Shown here one piece after another: positions 7,445-53,833 of a DNA stretch of 64,000 nucleotides. Origin of the DNA: Sporichthya brevicatena (GTDB taxonomy: Bacteria; Actinomycetota; Actinomycetes; Sporichthyales; Sporichthyaceae). Position 1 is the first letter of the stretch. Each line of letters starts with the position of its first letter. A program made the translations under genes and the position numbers. Below the pieces are notes generated by a model. That model had not been told where the DNA came from and did not search any database. It was given only the letters and a program-made list of their open reading frames with translations. The DNA lies in contig NZ_BAAAHE010000007.1 in the NCBI RefSeq assembly GCF_039525035.1, positions 248,001-312,000 of the forward strand, in the 5' to 3' direction.

Positions 7445-7924
7445 TCAGTCGCGGCGGTAGGACGGGTCCGTGCGGTCGCGCGCGGCCGGGGCGGTGCCCG
7501 GGGGAGTGGCGACGAAGCCGGTCTGCTCGGTCTGCCACTCGGAGACCAGCGTCCGGTGGGCGATGCGCCAGCCGGCGCCGGGGCGGTCCTCGAAGCGGTC
7601 GACGTAGCGGGCGCCGAAGACCTTGAGCGAGCCGCCGCCCTTGGTGACGTGGTAGGCGATCAGGTAGCTCTCGACGTGGGCGACGCCGCCGTCCTGCTCG
7701 ATCGTGATGTTCGTGAGCGTGTGCATCGTCGAGTCGAAGCGCTCGGCCAGGACGTTCAGGACCCAAGTGATGTAGTCCTCGACCGAGCCGCGGAAGACGT
7801 CGCCGTGGTCGTCGTAACCGTCGGAGTGGTACGCCGAGCGGATCAGGTCGGCGTCCATCCGGTCGATGCCGCGGCAGTACCGGTGCAGCGCCTCGGTGAT
7901 GTCCGCGCGGACCTTCTCGCTCAT
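7445..7924 (-). CDS. SnoaL_4-type NTF2-like protein (possible dehydratase or isomerase)
   Basis: This 159-residue protein carries HRYCRGIDRMDADLIRSAYH and DDHGDVFRGSVEDYI, the usual opening of SnoaL_4 proteins. That superfamily includes the bile-acid 7-alpha-dehydratase BaiE and scytalone dehydratase. Tyr and His residues (SAYHSDGYDDHGD) sit in the expected pocket positions. Its ATG overlaps the stop of the P450 gene (ATGA at 7921-7924), so they form one unit. A role in removing water from, or isomerising, a P450-hydroxylated ring substrate is reasonable but inferred. Confidence 0.8.
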   Translation of the reverse strand: MSEKVRADITEALHRYCRGIDRMDADLIRSAYHSDGYDDHGDVFRGSVEDYITWVLNVLAERFDSTMHTLTNITIEQDGGVAHVESYLIAYHVTKGGGSLKVFGARYVDRFEDRPGAGWRIAHRTLVSEWQTEQTGFVATPPGTAPAARDRTDPSYRRD

Positions 7925-9201
7925 ACGCTCACCGGGTCGAAGACGACGTTCAGTCGCGTCAGATTGTGCTGGACGAGGTTCGGCGCCCATTGGCCGGCGT
8001 CCTCGTCGGGGGCGAGCGCGAGGTTGCGGGTGCGCGCGAGCAGGGTCTCGAGAGCGATGCGCGCCTCCGCCCGGGCCAGCGGCGCACCGAGGCAGAAGTG
8101 CGGCCCCTGCGCGAAACTGAGGTGGCGTCGGCCCTCGGCGCCGCGGTCGAGCCGGATCTCGTCGGGGGTGGGGAACTGCGCCTCGTCGCGGTTGGCCGAG
8201 CCGTAGACGAGCCAGAGGAAGTCGCCGGCCCGAATCGGCACGCCACCGACGGTGGTGTCCCGCATCGCCTGGCGGAACAGGCCCTGCACCGGCGGTTCGA
8301 CGCGCAGCGTCTCCTCGACGAACGGCGGGATCAGCTCGGGGTCCGCGCGGAGCTCGTCCTGCAGCTCCGGGCGTCGGCAGAGCATCCAGATGCACGAGGC
8401 GATCAGGCTGTTCGTCGTCTCGTTGCCGCCGATCAGGAAGAGCGTCAGCATCTGCAGCCGCTCCTCGTGGCAGAGATCGGCCTGCGCGACGTCGGTGACG
8501 AGGTCCTCACGCGGGTCGGCGAGGCGCTCGGACATGCGTGCCTCGAAGAAGTCGTAGCACTCGTCGAGGGAGAGGATCAGCGCCGAGATCTCCTCGACCG
8601 ACAGGTTCGGCCGGCCGTTCGCGCGGACGAAGGCGTCGGACCAGCGCTTCAGCGTCGGGATGTCCGTGCCCTCGATGCCGAGCGCGCGGGCGATGACGGT
8701 CATCGGCAGCGGGGTCGCGAGTTCGGCGACGACATCGGCCTCGCCGCGGGCGACAAAGGCGTCGACGAGACCCTCGGCCAGCTCACGGATCGGCGGCTCC
8801 AGGAGCGCGACGCGACGCGGCGTGAAGACCTTGTTCATCATCTTGCGCTGCTCGCCGTGGCGGGGCGGGTCGCAGTTGACGAGGGCGGCGCCCTTCTCGG
8901 CGATGCCGATGCGGCGCACCGCCGCGGCGCGGACGCGGTCGGAGTACTGCGGGTCCTCGGCCGCCGCGACCGCGAGGCTGGTCGCGGCGCCGGGGCCGGA
9001 CTGCTTGCGCGAGGAGAAGTCCTCCGGGCGCAGTAGGACGTCGAGGATGTCGGCGTGCCGGGTCACGGCGTACGCCGTCAGGGCGGGGATCCACTGGACG
9101 GGGTGCTCGCCGCGCAGGTGCTCGTAGACCGGGTACGGGCAGCGGACCAACTCGGGCGTCGCCGCGGCGAACAGGCCGTCGTGGGGGCAGGTCTCGGTCA
9201 C
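7921..9201 (-). CDS. Cytochrome P450
   Basis: This 426-residue soluble bacterial P450 has all the hallmarks: I-helix GGNETT (258-263), the ExxR motif EETLR (296-300), and heme-binding FAQGPHFCLG with Cys370 as thiolate ligand. There is no membrane anchor, so it would need a separate ferredoxin and reductase, which are not in this window. Related CYP families hydroxylate steroids, terpenes and fatty acids. It is the first gene after the divergent 9.2 kb promoter carrying operator copy A and is coupled to the SnoaL gene. Confidence 0.95.
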   Translation of the reverse strand: MTETCPHDGLFAAATPELVRCPYPVYEHLRGEHPVQWIPALTAYAVTRHADILDVLLRPEDFSSRKQSGPGAATSLAVAAAEDPQYSDRVRAAAVRRIGIAEKGAALVNCDPPRHGEQRKMMNKVFTPRRVALLEPPIRELAEGLVDAFVARGEADVVAELATPLPMTVIARALGIEGTDIPTLKRWSDAFVRANGRPNLSVEEISALILSLDECYDFFEARMSERLADPREDLVTDVAQADLCHEERLQMLTLFLIGGNETTNSLIASCIWMLCRRPELQDELRADPELIPPFVEETLRVEPPVQGLFRQAMRDTTVGGVPIRAGDFLWLVYGSANRDEAQFPTPDEIRLDRGAEGRRHLSFAQGPHFCLGAPLARAEARIALETLLARTRNLALAPDEDAGQWAPNLVQHNLTRLNVVFDPVSV

Positions 9202-46530: not shown

Positions 46531-47757
46531 TCAGCCGCGGAGCAGCTGCAGGACGCCCTGCGGGGCCGAGTTGGCCTGAGCCAGCATCGCGGTGCCGGCC
46601 TGGGACAGGATCTGGCTCCGGGTGAAGCTGACCATCTCCGCCGCCATGTCGGTGTCGCGGATCCGGCTCTCCGACGCGGACAGGTTCTCCACCGCGACGT
46701 TGAGGTTGTTGATCGTGTGCTCGAAGCGGTTCTGGTAGGCACCGAGCTGCGCACGAGCGGTCGACACGTTCTTGATCGCGTTGTCGACGAGGTCGATCGC
46801 CGACCGCGCGTTCGCGGTGTTGCTCAGGCTGGCCGCGTTGACGCCGAGGCCGGCGCTGTCGAAGCCGGTCGCGGTGCCGAGAACGGCCTCGGCACCGGCC
46901 GTGGCGGTCTCGGCGAGACCCAGGGCGGTGGTGAGCGAGTCCGTCGAGGCCGCCAGCACGTTGATGCTGGAGGATGCGCCGGTGGTCTCCGAGGTCAGCG
47001 TGACGACGCCGGCCGCCTCCGACGCGATGGTCCCGGTGGAACCGGTCGCGGTCTGGTAGGCGGTGTTGATGGCGCTGACCACCGTCGCCGCGGTGGCGTC
47101 GTTCGCCACCGTGACGTCGAACGACGCGCCGCCGTCGACCGACAGGGACAGCGTGCCGCCGGTGTAGGTGCCGGGAACCGCGCCGCCGCCGGTGACCGTG
47201 GCCGCCGTCGCCGCCGAACCCGTCACGGCCGTGCCGAACGCCGCCGCGGTGAGGGCGACGTCGATGCGGTCGTTGAGGGTGTTGTTGGCGCCGACCTGGA
47301 AGTTGCCGGAGTAACCGGTGGAGCCGTTGACGCCCACGTCGAGCAGCTTCTGGCCACCGAACGACGTGGTCTTGGCGATGCGGTCCAGCTCGCCCTGGAG
47401 CTGGGCGAACTCGGTCTGGGCCGCGGCCTGGGCCTTGGCGTCCTGGCTACCGCCGTTGGCGGCCTGGACGGCGAGGTCACGCATGCGCTGCAGGATCGAG
47501 GTGGTCTCGGTCAGCGCACCTTCTGCGGTCTGGACGACCGAGATGGCGTCCTGGCTGTTCCGAACGGCGACCTTGAGGCCACCGATCTGCGAGCGCAGGC
47601 CCTCGGAGATGCTGAGGCCGGCCGCGTCGTCCGCTGCGCGGTTGATGCGGAAACCGCTGGAGAGACGCTCGAGCGACTTCTCCATCTGACCCGACGTCAC
47701 CGACAGGTTGCGGTAGGCGTTCATCGCCGAGATGTTCTGGTTGATGCGGAGTCCCAT
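46531..47757 (-). CDS. fliC: Flagellin FliC
   Basis: This 408-residue flagellin has conserved D0/D1 ends: N-terminal MGLRINQNISAMNAYRNL and RLSSGFRINRAADDAAGLSI, and C-terminal RIRDTDMAAEMVSFTRSQIL with ending GVLQLLRG. The central 160-290 part is Thr/Ala-rich and variable, typical of the surface-exposed D2 region. It forms the filament after export. A sigma-28-like promoter lies at 47821-47847, and the leader contains two CsrA-type ANGGAN motifs, one over the ribosome site. Confidence 0.96.
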   Translation of the reverse strand: MGLRINQNISAMNAYRNLSVTSGQMEKSLERLSSGFRINRAADDAAGLSISEGLRSQIGGLKVAVRNSQDAISVVQTAEGALTETTSILQRMRDLAVQAANGGSQDAKAQAAAQTEFAQLQGELDRIAKTTSFGGQKLLDVGVNGSTGYSGNFQVGANNTLNDRIDVALTAAAFGTAVTGSAATAATVTGGGAVPGTYTGGTLSLSVDGGASFDVTVANDATAATVVSAINTAYQTATGSTGTIASEAAGVVTLTSETTGASSSINVLAASTDSLTTALGLAETATAGAEAVLGTATGFDSAGLGVNAASLSNTANARSAIDLVDNAIKNVSTARAQLGAYQNRFEHTINNLNVAVENLSASESRIRDTDMAAEMVSFTRSQILSQAGTAMLAQANSAPQGVLQLLRG

Positions 47758-47763
47758 GATGGA

Positions 47764-47810
47764 GTCCTTTCCTGATGGGTTCTCGTGATCGGTGGGGCCG
47801 TCCGTGGCCC
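47764..47810 (-). promoter_or_regulatory. fliC leader with predicted CsrA binding sites
   Basis: The transcript folds GGGCC, loop ACGGAC, GGCCC (47795-47810). The six-base loop matches the CsrA loop consensus ANGGAN exactly. A second ANGGAN (AAGGAC) is part of the ribosome site AGGAAAGGA just before the ATG. Two such sites, one hairpin and one at the ribosome site, are how CsrA blocks hag translation in Bacillus subtilis. csrA and fliW are both in this window. Confidence 0.6.
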
Positions 47811-47820
47811 GACACCGAGG

Positions 47821-47847
47821 ATTTCGGCCGCCGAAGCGGATACCTGA
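47821..47847 (-). promoter_or_regulatory. Sigma-28-type promoter of fliC
   Basis: Read on the minus strand: TCAG (47847-47844), 15 bases, GCCGAAAT (47828-47821). This agrees with the flagellar sigma consensus (TAAA, 15 bases, GCCGATAA) in spacing and -10, and matches the TCAR -35 seen before flgN and cheA. The start of transcription would be near 47814, giving a leader of about 57 bases. Confidence 0.65.
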
Positions 47848-47851
47848 GGAG

Positions 47852-48748
47852 TCAGGCGGTCTTCTGCTCGCCGGTGCGCGGGCTGGTGTCGACCGGACGC
47901 GCGGACAGGCGGGAGCGGTAGTCGCTGCGGGCGGCGACGGCGGCGTAGTACGCCTCGTGCCGCTTCGCGGCGCGGCCGGTGGCGGCGGCGGGTGCCGGCC
48001 GCTCCTCGGCCAGGGCGGCGTTGAGGCCGCCGCGCAGGAGGGTGAGGGCCTCGGCGCGCATCTGCGAGACGCGGGACTCCGTCACGCCCAGCTGGGCGGC
48101 GGTCTCCGCCATCGGGCGCTCCTCGAAGTAGTACTGCGTGACCACGGTGCGGAGACGCTCCGGCAGCGTCAACACGGCGTCGTGGAGGTAGCCGATGCGC
48201 TCGTGCGCGAGCAGCTGGTCCTCGGGGCCGGCCTCCGACGAGGGCGCCAGGGTCTCCACGGCCTCCGGGTCGGCGAAGCCGTCGAGGGAGAGGACCACGG
48301 CGCGGTGGACGTCGTGTCGGCCGTCGGCGATCTCCGACACCTCGACGCCCAGGGCGGTGGCGATCTCGGTGTCGGTCGGCGTGCGGCCGAGCTCCGTCGT
48401 CAGCTGCGCGACGACCGTCTCCTGCCGGCGAGCCTTGGCGCGGACCGAGCGCGAGGCCCAGTCGGTGTTGCGCAGCTCGTCGATGAGAGCGCCGCGGATG
48501 CGGATGCTCGCGAACCGGGTGAACGGCACGCCGCGGTCCGCGTCGTAGGCGCGGACGGCGAACGCCAGAGCGGCGAGACCGGCCGAGGTCAGCTCCGCGC
48601 GCGACACGTGCGCGGGAACCTTCGCGAGGACTTCCGAGACCAGGTAGCCGACCAGCGGAAGGTTCTCGCGGACCATGGCCTCTTCGTCGATCGAGCGGGC
48701 CGACGGGGGCAGCGGCGTCGCGGTGGGGGAAAGCAAAGAGTTGGTCAC
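47852..48748 (-). CDS. fliA: Flagellar sigma factor (sigma-28/FliA-WhiG type)
   Basis: This 298-residue sigma-70-family factor lacks region 1. Region 2 is visible as AALAFAVRAYDADRGVPFTRFASIRIRGALIDELR, followed by a DWASRSVR segment typical of FliA/WhiG; region 3 is TELGRTPTDTEIATALG; region 4 is LPERLRTVVTQYYFEERPMAETAAQLGVTESRVSQMRAEAL. The 35-residue C-terminal tail after region 4 is not conserved. It would read the TCAR-N15-GCCGA promoters of fliC, flgN and cheA. The anti-sigma FlgM is not visible in the window. It is divergent from flgN. Confidence 0.92.
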   Translation of the reverse strand: MTNSLLSPTATPLPPSARSIDEEAMVRENLPLVGYLVSEVLAKVPAHVSRAELTSAGLAALAFAVRAYDADRGVPFTRFASIRIRGALIDELRNTDWASRSVRAKARRQETVVAQLTTELGRTPTDTEIATALGVEVSEIADGRHDVHRAVVLSLDGFADPEAVETLAPSSEAGPEDQLLAHERIGYLHDAVLTLPERLRTVVTQYYFEERPMAETAAQLGVTESRVSQMRAEALTLLRGGLNAALAEERPAPAAATGRAAKRHEAYYAAVAARSDYRSRLSARPVDTSPRTGEQKTA

Positions 48749-50851: not shown

Positions 50852-51748
50852 ATGACCATCGGACGCATCACCCAGCGCTCGATCGCAACGACCACGTTGG
50901 CGGGGTTGCAGAACAACCTGACCCGGCTCAGCGGAATCCAGCAGCAGCTCTCGAGCGGCAAGCTGATCTCGAAGCCCTCGGACTCGCCGACGGGCACGGT
51001 CTCCGCGATGCAGATGCGCGCCGAGATCCGCGACAACACGCAGTGGTCGCGCAACGCCGACGACGGCCTCGGCTGGCTCGGCACCATCGACCAGAGCCTG
51101 ACGAGCGCACTGTCCTCCGTCCGGCGCGCGCGGGACCTCACGCTGACCGGCCTGAACTCCGGGGCGGCCTCGGCCACCTCGGGCGAGGCGCTGGCCGCGG
51201 AGATCGACCAGCTGCGGCAGGGCCTGATCGGGCTGGCGAACACGCGCTACCTCGACCGCCCGGTGTTCGGCGGCACGACCGGTGGGGCGCAGGCGTACGA
51301 CGCGTCCGGCACCTACGTCGGGCCGGCGACCTCGCCGCCGATCCTGCGCACGGTCGGGGCGAACGCGACCGTCCGCGTCGACCAGACCGGGCCGGAGGTG
51401 TTCGGGCCCGCGGGGGCGGACCTGTTCCAGGTGCTCGACGACATCTCGGCCGCACTGCGCGCCGGAGACCACACGGCGCTCAACACCGGGCTCGGCGACC
51501 TCGACACGGCGATGAAGCGCATCGCCGGCAAGGTCGCGGAGGTCGGCGCCGCCTACAACCGGGTCGAGCAGATGCGCTCCGCCGCCGACGACCGGATCCT
51601 CACCCTGAAGGCGTCGCTCTCGGAGGTCGAGGACGTGGACCTGCCCTCGGCCATCGTCGAGCTCTCGCTCGCGCAGGTCGCCCAGCAGGCCGCCCTGGCC
51701 GCCACCCAACGGGTGGTCACCCCCTCGCTCGTGGACTTCCTCCGATGA
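50852..51748 (+). CDS. flgL: Flagellar hook-associated protein 3, FlgL
   Basis: This 298-residue flagellin-like protein has N-terminal QRSIATTTLAGLQNNLTRLSGIQQQLSSGKLISKPSDSPTGTV and C-terminal LPSAIVELSLAQVAQQAALAATQRVVTPSLVDFLR. It is the second junction protein between hook and filament. It starts 3 bp after flgK, and its stop overlaps the fliW ATG. Confidence 0.94.
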   Translation: MTIGRITQRSIATTTLAGLQNNLTRLSGIQQQLSSGKLISKPSDSPTGTVSAMQMRAEIRDNTQWSRNADDGLGWLGTIDQSLTSALSSVRRARDLTLTGLNSGAASATSGEALAAEIDQLRQGLIGLANTRYLDRPVFGGTTGGAQAYDASGTYVGPATSPPILRTVGANATVRVDQTGPEVFGPAGADLFQVLDDISAALRAGDHTALNTGLGDLDTAMKRIAGKVAEVGAAYNRVEQMRSAADDRILTLKASLSEVEDVDLPSAIVELSLAQVAQQAALAATQRVVTPSLVDFLR

Positions 51749-52170
51749 CCGCGGCGGTGGAGATGCTGCCCGGTACCGAGGACGAGGCGGTCCCGGCGCT
51801 GGAGTTCGTCGGACCGATCGCGGGCTTCCCCGGGCACCGGTCCTTCGCGCTCACCGAGATCGACCCCGCGTCGATCGTGTGCGCGCTGCAGTCGCTGGAG
51901 GACCGCGAGGTGCGGTTCCTCGTCATGCCGCCCGGTCCGGTGTTCCCGGACTACGCGCCGGAGATCAGCGACGACTGGGCGGAGACCCTCGGCCTGACGC
52001 GGGCCGAGGACGCGCTGGTGCTCGTCATCGTCAACGCGGGGGCCTCGATCGCCGACGCGACCGCGAACCTGATGGCGCCGATCATCGTCAACACCGTGAC
52101 CCTGCGCGCGGCGCAGGTCGTGCTCAGTGACCCGGAACTGCCGCTAAGGGCCTCGTTGTCCGCCGCCTGA
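51745..52170 (+). CDS. fliW: Flagellar assembly factor FliW
   Basis: This 141-residue protein has the FliW pattern IAGFPGHRSFALTEID, VRFLVMPPGPVFPDYAPEI and the late LMAPIIVNTVTLRAAQVVL. FliW binds either newly made flagellin or CsrA. Free FliW removes CsrA from the flagellin mRNA, so translation follows filament export. The gene overlaps flgL by 4 bp. Its last 47 bp overlap the 3' end of the convergent kinase gene. Confidence 0.92.
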   Translation: MTAAVEMLPGTEDEAVPALEFVGPIAGFPGHRSFALTEIDPASIVCALQSLEDREVRFLVMPPGPVFPDYAPEISDDWAETLGLTRAEDALVLVIVNAGASIADATANLMAPIIVNTVTLRAAQVVLSDPELPLRASLSAA

Positions 52171-52702: not shown

Positions 52703-53662
52703 ATGGGTGCCGTTCTCGCGCTGGGCAGCGTCAACGCCGACTTCGTCGTCCGGACCGAGAGCTCGCCCGCGGGCCCGGGGAGCCTCGCGGCGCACTCGCT
52801 GCTGCGGACCTCGGGTGGGAAGGCCGGGAACCGTGCCGTGCTCGCAGCCCGGCTCGGAGCGCCGGCCCGGCTGCTGGCGGGGGTCGGGGACGACGACCTG
52901 GCCGCCCAGGCGCTGCGTGGACCCGAGGCCGCGGGGGTGAACCTGCGCGCGGTGCGCCGACGGCCGGGCCCGACGGGGTACGCGAGCATCGTCGTCCCCG
53001 CCGACGGGGGAAAGACGATCCTGCGCGTGCCGAACGCCAACGACGCCTGGGGTGAGGACGAGGCCAAGGTCGCGCTCGAGGTCGACGCGGCCCCCGACGG
53101 CAGCGTCGTGACCGTCGACTGCGAGGTCCCGGTCGCGCTGGTGCGGGCGGCCCTGGAGGCGGCGCGGGAACGGGGCTTCGTCACGGTTCTCGACCCTGCA
53201 CCTCCGACGCGGGTGAGCGACGAGCTCCTGGCCCTGACCGATCATCTGACGCCCGATCACACCGAAGCGAAGGAGCTGACCGGGATCGCGGTGTCCGGGC
53301 CGGCGGAGGCTGCCCGGGCGGCGGAAGCTCTGCGGGCGCGCGGCGCGGCCGTCGTCCACGTCAAGCTCGCGGGCGGTGGCTGCGTCACAGCCACCGCTGA
53401 CGGGGTGACGCTGATCGAGGCTCCGGACGCCGAGGTCGTCGACGCCACCGGCGCCGGGGACGCCTTCGCCGGCGCCCTCGCCGTCGCCCTGCTCGCCGGC
53501 CGGTCCGCTCTCGACGCCGCGGCCTCCGCCGTCGCCGCCGCCACCTGCGCCGTCACCGGCTACGGGAGCCAGGAGTCCTACCCCGATCCCGCCGCCCTCG
53601 CCCCCGTCCTCGCCGCGGTGCAGAAGCGGATTCGCCCCCTCCCCGCTGTAAAAAAGGGGTGA
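52703..53662 (+). CDS. Ribokinase-family (PfkB) carbohydrate kinase
   Basis: This 319-residue PfkB kinase has SVNADFV at the start (substrate), RTSGGKAGNRAVLAARLGA (motif 1) and VVDATGAGDAFAGALAVAL (motif 2, with the catalytic Asp). Members phosphorylate ribose, nucleosides or other sugars with ATP. Its final codons and TGA stop are inside the family P palindrome (53645 on), so insertion of that repeat may have set the C-terminus (AVKKG). Confidence 0.9.
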   Translation: MGAVLALGSVNADFVVRTESSPAGPGSLAAHSLLRTSGGKAGNRAVLAARLGAPARLLAGVGDDDLAAQALRGPEAAGVNLRAVRRRPGPTGYASIVVPADGGKTILRVPNANDAWGEDEAKVALEVDAAPDGSVVTVDCEVPVALVRAALEAARERGFVTVLDPAPPTRVSDELLALTDHLTPDHTEAKELTGIAVSGPAEAARAAEALRARGAAVVHVKLAGGGCVTATADGVTLIEAPDAEVVDATGAGDAFAGALAVALLAGRSALDAAASAVAAATCAVTGYGSQESYPDPAALAPVLAAVQKRIRPLPAVKKG

Positions 53663-53706
53663 CACCCCTTACTGCGGAGTAAGGGGTGTCACCCTTTCTT
53701 GGCAGC
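53645..53706. repeat. Palindromic repeat, family P, copy P2
   Basis: A 62-base near-perfect palindrome: GCTGTAAAAAAGGGGTGACA, then CCCCTTACTGCGGAGTAAGG, then GGTGTCACCCTTTCTTGGCA ending in GC. The arms pair along the whole length around ACTGCGGAGT. It supplies the stop codon of the ribokinase gene and should work as a terminator. It is directly followed by repeat R3. Confidence 0.8.
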
Positions 53707-53757: not shown

Positions 53758-53833
53758 GCAACGTCCCCTAAGCTCGCGGACAGACGGCGCGGCGCACGGA
53801 AGTGCCGCCGCCTCCCAGGGAAGGGGACCAGGG

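Follow-up and report, generated by a model that had tools for sequence, protein, structure and literature searches.

A conserved hairpin in actinobacterial flagellin leaders and predicted CsrA-FliW control of fliC in Sporichthya brevicatena

Introduction

CsrA of Gram-positive bacteria is known mainly from the Bacillota. In Bacillus subtilis, a CsrA dimer bound to the flagellin leader keeps the ribosome off; FliW takes CsrA away and is itself removed by cytoplasmic flagellin (PMC6529632). FliW binding requires CsrA residue N55 in both C. jejuni and B. subtilis (PMC7829508). The fliC leader of Clostridioides difficile has two predicted CsrA sites, BS1 (TGACAAGGATGT) and BS2 (CTAAGGAGGG), with FliW and CsrA genetics behind them (PMC8523840). 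The bound form in RsmE structures is an ANGGAN hexaloop, and most SELEX ligands present GGA in a six-base loop, in most cases with four or fewer contiguous pairs (PMC7652899).

For actinobacteria, CsrA control of the Kineococcus radiotolerans flagellin Krad1626 was proposed in 2008 from a ribosome-site match alone (PMC2587704). A 2015 paper suggested that FliW controls CsrA in Actinobacteria (PMC4682653), and a 2023 study of actinobacterial flagella included csrA and fliW among the surveyed genes. The initial annotation of the DNA studied here called such control little described in actinobacteria; the literature is indeed scant, but these two proposals mean that it is not empty. In the open literature that we searched, the fliC leader hairpin of actinobacteria was nowhere described and CsrA in actinobacteria was only proposed, with no experimental test found. 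What is new here is a phylum-wide flagellin hairpin, together with a similar two-site leader on csrA.

Results

The fliC leader and its promoter

The window (the whole stretch of 64,000 nucleotides of S. brevicatena DNA that was analysed) gave Pfam matches to flagellin, a sigma factor, FlgN, FlgK, an FlgL-type protein, FliW and CsrA. On the minus strand, a leader of 94 bases separates the sigma factor gene (last base 47852) from the fliC ATG at 47757. The initial annotation had claimed a leader hairpin with an exact ANGGAN loop, a second ANGGAN at the fliC ribosome site, and csrA and fliW in the same region. All of these were found (Table 1): the loop is ACGGAC, the second motif overlaps the Shine-Dalgarno sequence, and both genes start where they had been placed and are confirmed by Pfam. 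The two GGA motifs of the leader are 36 nt apart, and in most relatives the distance is 29-38 nt. A search of Rfam returned no family that covers the leader hairpin, the sole match being a meaningless miRNA.

Table 1. Coordinates of the features discussed (window positions unless a locus is named)
Feature	Position	Strand	Remarks
FliA-type -10 element GCCGAAAT	47821..47828	-	GCCGATRR-like box
FliA-type -35 element CTCA, 16-nt spacer	47845..47848	-	identified by eye; related leaders again show CTCA/CTAA
Predicted transcription start zone	47812..47816	-	placed from the -10 box
FliA/WhiG-family sigma factor gene	47852..48748	-	TIGR02479, 1.5e-54, 185.1 bits (slightly below the cut-off of 189.6)
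BS1 hairpin GGGCC[ACGGAC]GGCCC, predicted high-affinity CsrA site	47795..47810	-	loop is an exact ANGGAN
BS2 AAGGAC (ANGGAN) over the fliC Shine-Dalgarno sequence, candidate CsrA site	47764..47769	-	
fliC (flagellin), proposed regulated gene	46531..47757	-	Pfam Flagellin_N 3.4e-46, Flagellin_C 6.5e-30
fliW, predicted CsrA antagonist	51745..52170	+	Pfam PF02623, E 1.4e-31
csrA-leader hairpin GCGGCGC[ACGGAA]GTGCCGC	53789..53808	+	7/7 pairs; GGA 36 nt before the GTG start
csrA, 81 aa	53834..54079	+	PF02599; L4, R6, V40, V42, H43, R44, N55
Mini-flagellin	L135 1414-1812	-	own CsrA-type hairpin leader
Mini-flagellin	L136 1243-1584	-	own CsrA-type hairpin leader

The fliC promoter is likely read by the FliA/WhiG-family sigma factor. 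The simple -10 pattern was recognised in 35 leaders; in 32 of them the box begins 23-25 nt ahead of the loop, and from this fixed spacing the hairpin is predicted to start within a few bases of the mRNA 5' end. The closing pair of the hairpin has a probability of 0.93-0.99 in predicted transcripts that start anywhere in the zone of Table 1. Judged from the promoter position, both CsrA-type sites would lie inside the transcript. The initial annotation had named a fliC start downstream of the hairpin as evidence against its reading; the predicted start zone lies upstream of it.

Conservation of the hairpin among actinobacterial flagellins

Loci of relatives were collected by the flagellin protein alone, so the leaders are unselected for the hairpin. 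A start could be assigned in 55 actinobacterial leaders, among them those of the window and its sister species, and these form the set; L012 (a contig without the leader) and L029 (start codon unclear) were left out. It spans Kineococcus, Pseudokineococcus, Nocardioides, Actinotalea, Cryobacterium, Salinibacterium, Agromyces, Microbacterium (which is over-represented), Sinomonas, Zafaria, Catenuloplanes, Geodermatophilus, Modestobacter and acidimicrobial MAGs. Conservation in related flagellated actinobacteria was one of the checks that the initial annotation had called for: an A.GGA. hexaloop with six or all seven of the flanking pairs occurs in 52 of the 55 fliC leaders, against about 1% of controls (0.6% of dinucleotide shuffles; 1.2% of 1042 control ORF upstreams). 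At a threshold of at least 5 of 7 pairs the count is 54 of 55. The hairpin is thus present beyond chance. The one outright miss, L014, has by eye a pentaloop AGGAC hairpin instead. Both Kineococcus leaders carry the hairpin, and L007 carries it twice. Such tandem GGA-loop hairpins were seen in some Kineococcus and Microbacterium fliC leaders (L007, about 7910-7961; L058, L063, L075 and L077, about 7928-7975). Just upstream of fliC, two species of a single genus (L135 and L136) encode mini-flagellins, about 113-132 aa long, that are reduced to the terminal flagellin regions.

An ungapped alignment of 50 leaders (A1) has an invariant A.GGA loop between variable flanks. Both-side changes were seen at all seven stem pairs, and 91% of cells pair. 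The covariation score was 0.681, against 0.167 after shuffling and about 0.2 after a one-column slide, with a sharp peak at zero slide. Kinship of the sequences inflates such covariation counts; the slide control retains that kinship. RNAalifold recovered the identical helix unprompted.

ANGGA is present at the Shine-Dalgarno sequence in 55 of 55 fliC leaders, compared with 75 of 297 control ORFs that have an SD-like sequence and whose start codons are uncertain. Shine-Dalgarno sequences often include ANGGAN, and the second motif is therefore weaker evidence when taken alone. Presentation of BS2 in a small hairpin of its own (GGA[AAGGAC]UCC in the host genus) was considered and dropped as unsupported: at least 3 pairs were found in 15 of 55 leaders and in 29 of 75 control sites.

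Genome survey with model R1

We searched 62 whole genomes of the class with a model (R1) built from the actinobacterial leaders. The top matches of R1 stop a few bases short of flagellin genes located separately by Pfam, and in genomes with several flagellins, several of the copies each have their own hairpin. Adjacency was taken from the coordinates of R1 and Pfam matches, and from direct inspection of the genomes that R1 missed. By R1 or inspection, the hairpin is present in 40 of 41 csrA-positive genomes with a FliC-type flagellin; the surveyed genomes are related, and these counts are not independent events. The one exception found, G079 (L128), has csrA, fliW and a divergent flagellin without a recognisable hairpin. 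No such hairpin was found at the flagellins of G269 and G378, two complete genomes of one genus that have flagellin but neither csrA nor fliW. G026 has the hairpin, and csrA was not found in it; since this assembly is 80% complete and that of G370, likewise lacking a detected csrA, is 63% complete, both were unusable as controls.

In the host genome the fliC leader is the only strong R1 match (E 9.1e-7). R1 also matches flagellin leaders of Bacillota, best in Lysinibacillus (E 2.9e-6); Solibacillus and other non-actinobacterial flagellin leaders are matched as well. Weak matches outside flagellins, such as those preceding a chemoreceptor-like gene in G334 and a GatC-like one in G271, were inconsistent across genomes and were dropped. 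A perfect ACGGAC hexaloop hairpin together with a second ACGGAC was seen, in one genome only, before an RsiG-like gene (L195; G031:C1:245152-245179, minus strand). RsiG is the c-di-GMP-responsive anti-sigma factor of WhiG, and the candidate hairpin of L195 precedes its look-alike.

CsrA and FliW

The window CsrA, single-copy in the host genome, has the profile match and the RNA-binding residues L4, R6 and R44 of its family, and it shares N55 and a C-terminal extension with FliW-regulated CsrAs. The closest solved relative of the window FliW is the FliW of 5dmb, which was crystallised with CsrA; the NCBIfam FliW equivalog models match the window FliW only below their cut-offs. Among 394 genomes of the class, 50 have csrA and fliW together, 6 have csrA alone and 1, a fragmented sister genome, has fliW alone. 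All 53 CsrAs that were examined carry R44. Each of the 46 CsrAs paired with FliW has N55, and none of the 7 unpaired ones does; since the latter belong to six genomes without FliW, from two genera, and to G288 as its second CsrA, the independent events are few. Actinobacterial CsrAs without fliW or a detected flagellin (L138, L139, L140, L141, L180, L183) have kept R44 and lost N55. Where fliW and N55 have both been lost, such CsrAs provide a natural contrast.

A two-site leader on csrA

Scanning both strands of the window for ANGGAN hexaloop hairpins gave five sites, one of them in the csrA leader (Table 1), and the csrA ribosome site has a second ANGGA motif, AGGGAA. In the sister species the loop is kept and the stem has one mismatch; the near-identity of the region makes this weak evidence. 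A 7-pair hairpin stands at the same position in G092 and a weaker one in Modestobacter; most other actinobacteria are without it. The two-site layout suggests, as a lead, CsrA autoregulation in the host genus. It is tentatively conceivable, at rather worse than even odds, that CsrA there represses its own synthesis through this layout and that flagellin and csrA make up nearly its whole target set. If true, autoregulation would be an extra loop on the actinobacterial switch. A strong inverted repeat (AAGGGGTGACACCCCTTACTGCGGAGTAAGGGGTGTCACCCTT, 53646-53700), probably a terminator, lies between a sugar-kinase-like gene and csrA.

Discussion

We put at roughly 0.87 the probability that the fliC leader is a CsrA leader of the B. 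subtilis hag type, on which CsrA would repress flagellin and FliW would relieve the repression. This reading draws support from the conservation of the hairpin, its invariant loop and covarying stem, its place in the predicted transcript, the co-occurrence of csrA and fliW, the CsrA residues and the cross-recognition of Bacillota leaders. The occurrence of the hairpin before flagellin in nearly all flagellated actinobacteria examined argues that a Bacillus-type feedback switch very probably operates here. The parallel with hag drawn by the initial annotation is borne out at the sequence level, where every prediction that could be tested held, binding itself being predicted. Some points count against a CsrA leader: the stem, rich in GC, exceeds that of most SELEX ligands in length, the divergent flagellin of G079 has no recognisable hairpin, and the incomplete G026 assembly has the hairpin but no detected csrA.

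We infer CsrA binding, repression, FliW relief and flagellin-FliW contact from homology, and the B. subtilis switch, applied unchanged to the window genes, would fit. The fliC mRNA would start with the hairpin, whose six-base loop would be the high-affinity CsrA site, and 36 nt further downstream a second, weaker site would cover the ribosome-binding site. Gripping the hairpin and bridging to the ribosome site, a CsrA dimer would block ribosome loading, so that no flagellin is made. FliW would bind the C-terminal helix of CsrA via N55 and remove it from the leader, and unexported cytoplasmic flagellin would capture FliW, whereupon repression would return. We propose that flagellin would therefore be made only at the pace of its export.

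5' hairpins commonly protect mRNAs, and the hairpin, sited at the predicted 5' end, might be a generic stabiliser of an abundant message, with CsrA uninvolved and the GGA loop incidental. A stabiliser needs no fixed loop, however, whereas A.GGA is invariant in 50 leaders despite the changing stem, and the flagellins of the complete genomes without csrA and fliW have no hairpin; we consider this explanation very improbable. Slightly less probable still is that the repeat serves a flagellar transcription factor as a DNA operator that overlaps the transcription start. The inverted repeat does stand at a fixed distance from the promoter, and strand asymmetry in the stem, as an argument for RNA over DNA, proved too weak to help much (15 G-U against 9 A-C cells among distinct rows). 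Yet the half-sites vary freely in paired fashion, with CG, GC, AU and UA at one position, which would be intolerable for a sequence-specific operator, and what is conserved is the asymmetric spacer ACGGA, which always reads in the mRNA sense.

It is also unlikely, if less so than the two preceding ideas, that CsrA binds and controls fliC while its activity is set otherwise than by FliW acting as in the B. subtilis partner switch. What speaks for this is that the evidence on the FliW arm is of the sequence kind; that csrA and fliW nearly always occur together, and that N55 is missing wherever fliW is, speaks against it. Under the preferred hag-type reading, the hairpin is a simple, directly testable candidate RNA target for actinobacterial CsrA. 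The covarying hairpin across flagellated actinobacteria and the Bacillota leaders recognised by R1 together suggest that the flagellin checkpoint predates the split between Actinobacteria and Bacillota; parallel origin in the two phyla could also account for it.

In the E. coli glgC leader, as predicted here, a hairpin-loop site tethers CsrA and a bridged site lies over the Shine-Dalgarno sequence; that target is a different one, and its CsrA is antagonised by the CsrB/C sRNAs, not by FliW (PMC7652899). The Krad1626 proposal shares with ours CsrA control of an actinobacterial flagellin and a BS2-like ribosome site; its passage on this control names only the BS2 match, whereas the two Kineococcus leaders in our set also bear the hairpin (PMC2587704). 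The C. difficile fliC leader has two predicted sites in the same order, in another phylum and with another stem sequence. Compared with B. subtilis hag, the window stem is GC-rich, the hairpin lies at the predicted extreme 5' end, csrA and fliW are separated by two unrelated genes, csrA has a candidate CsrA hairpin of its own, and the system is known here from sequence alone. Like hag, the fliC leader has an upstream ANGGA and a second site over the Shine-Dalgarno sequence, the same three proteins are encoded, and a model trained on actinobacteria recognises the related leaders of Bacillota.
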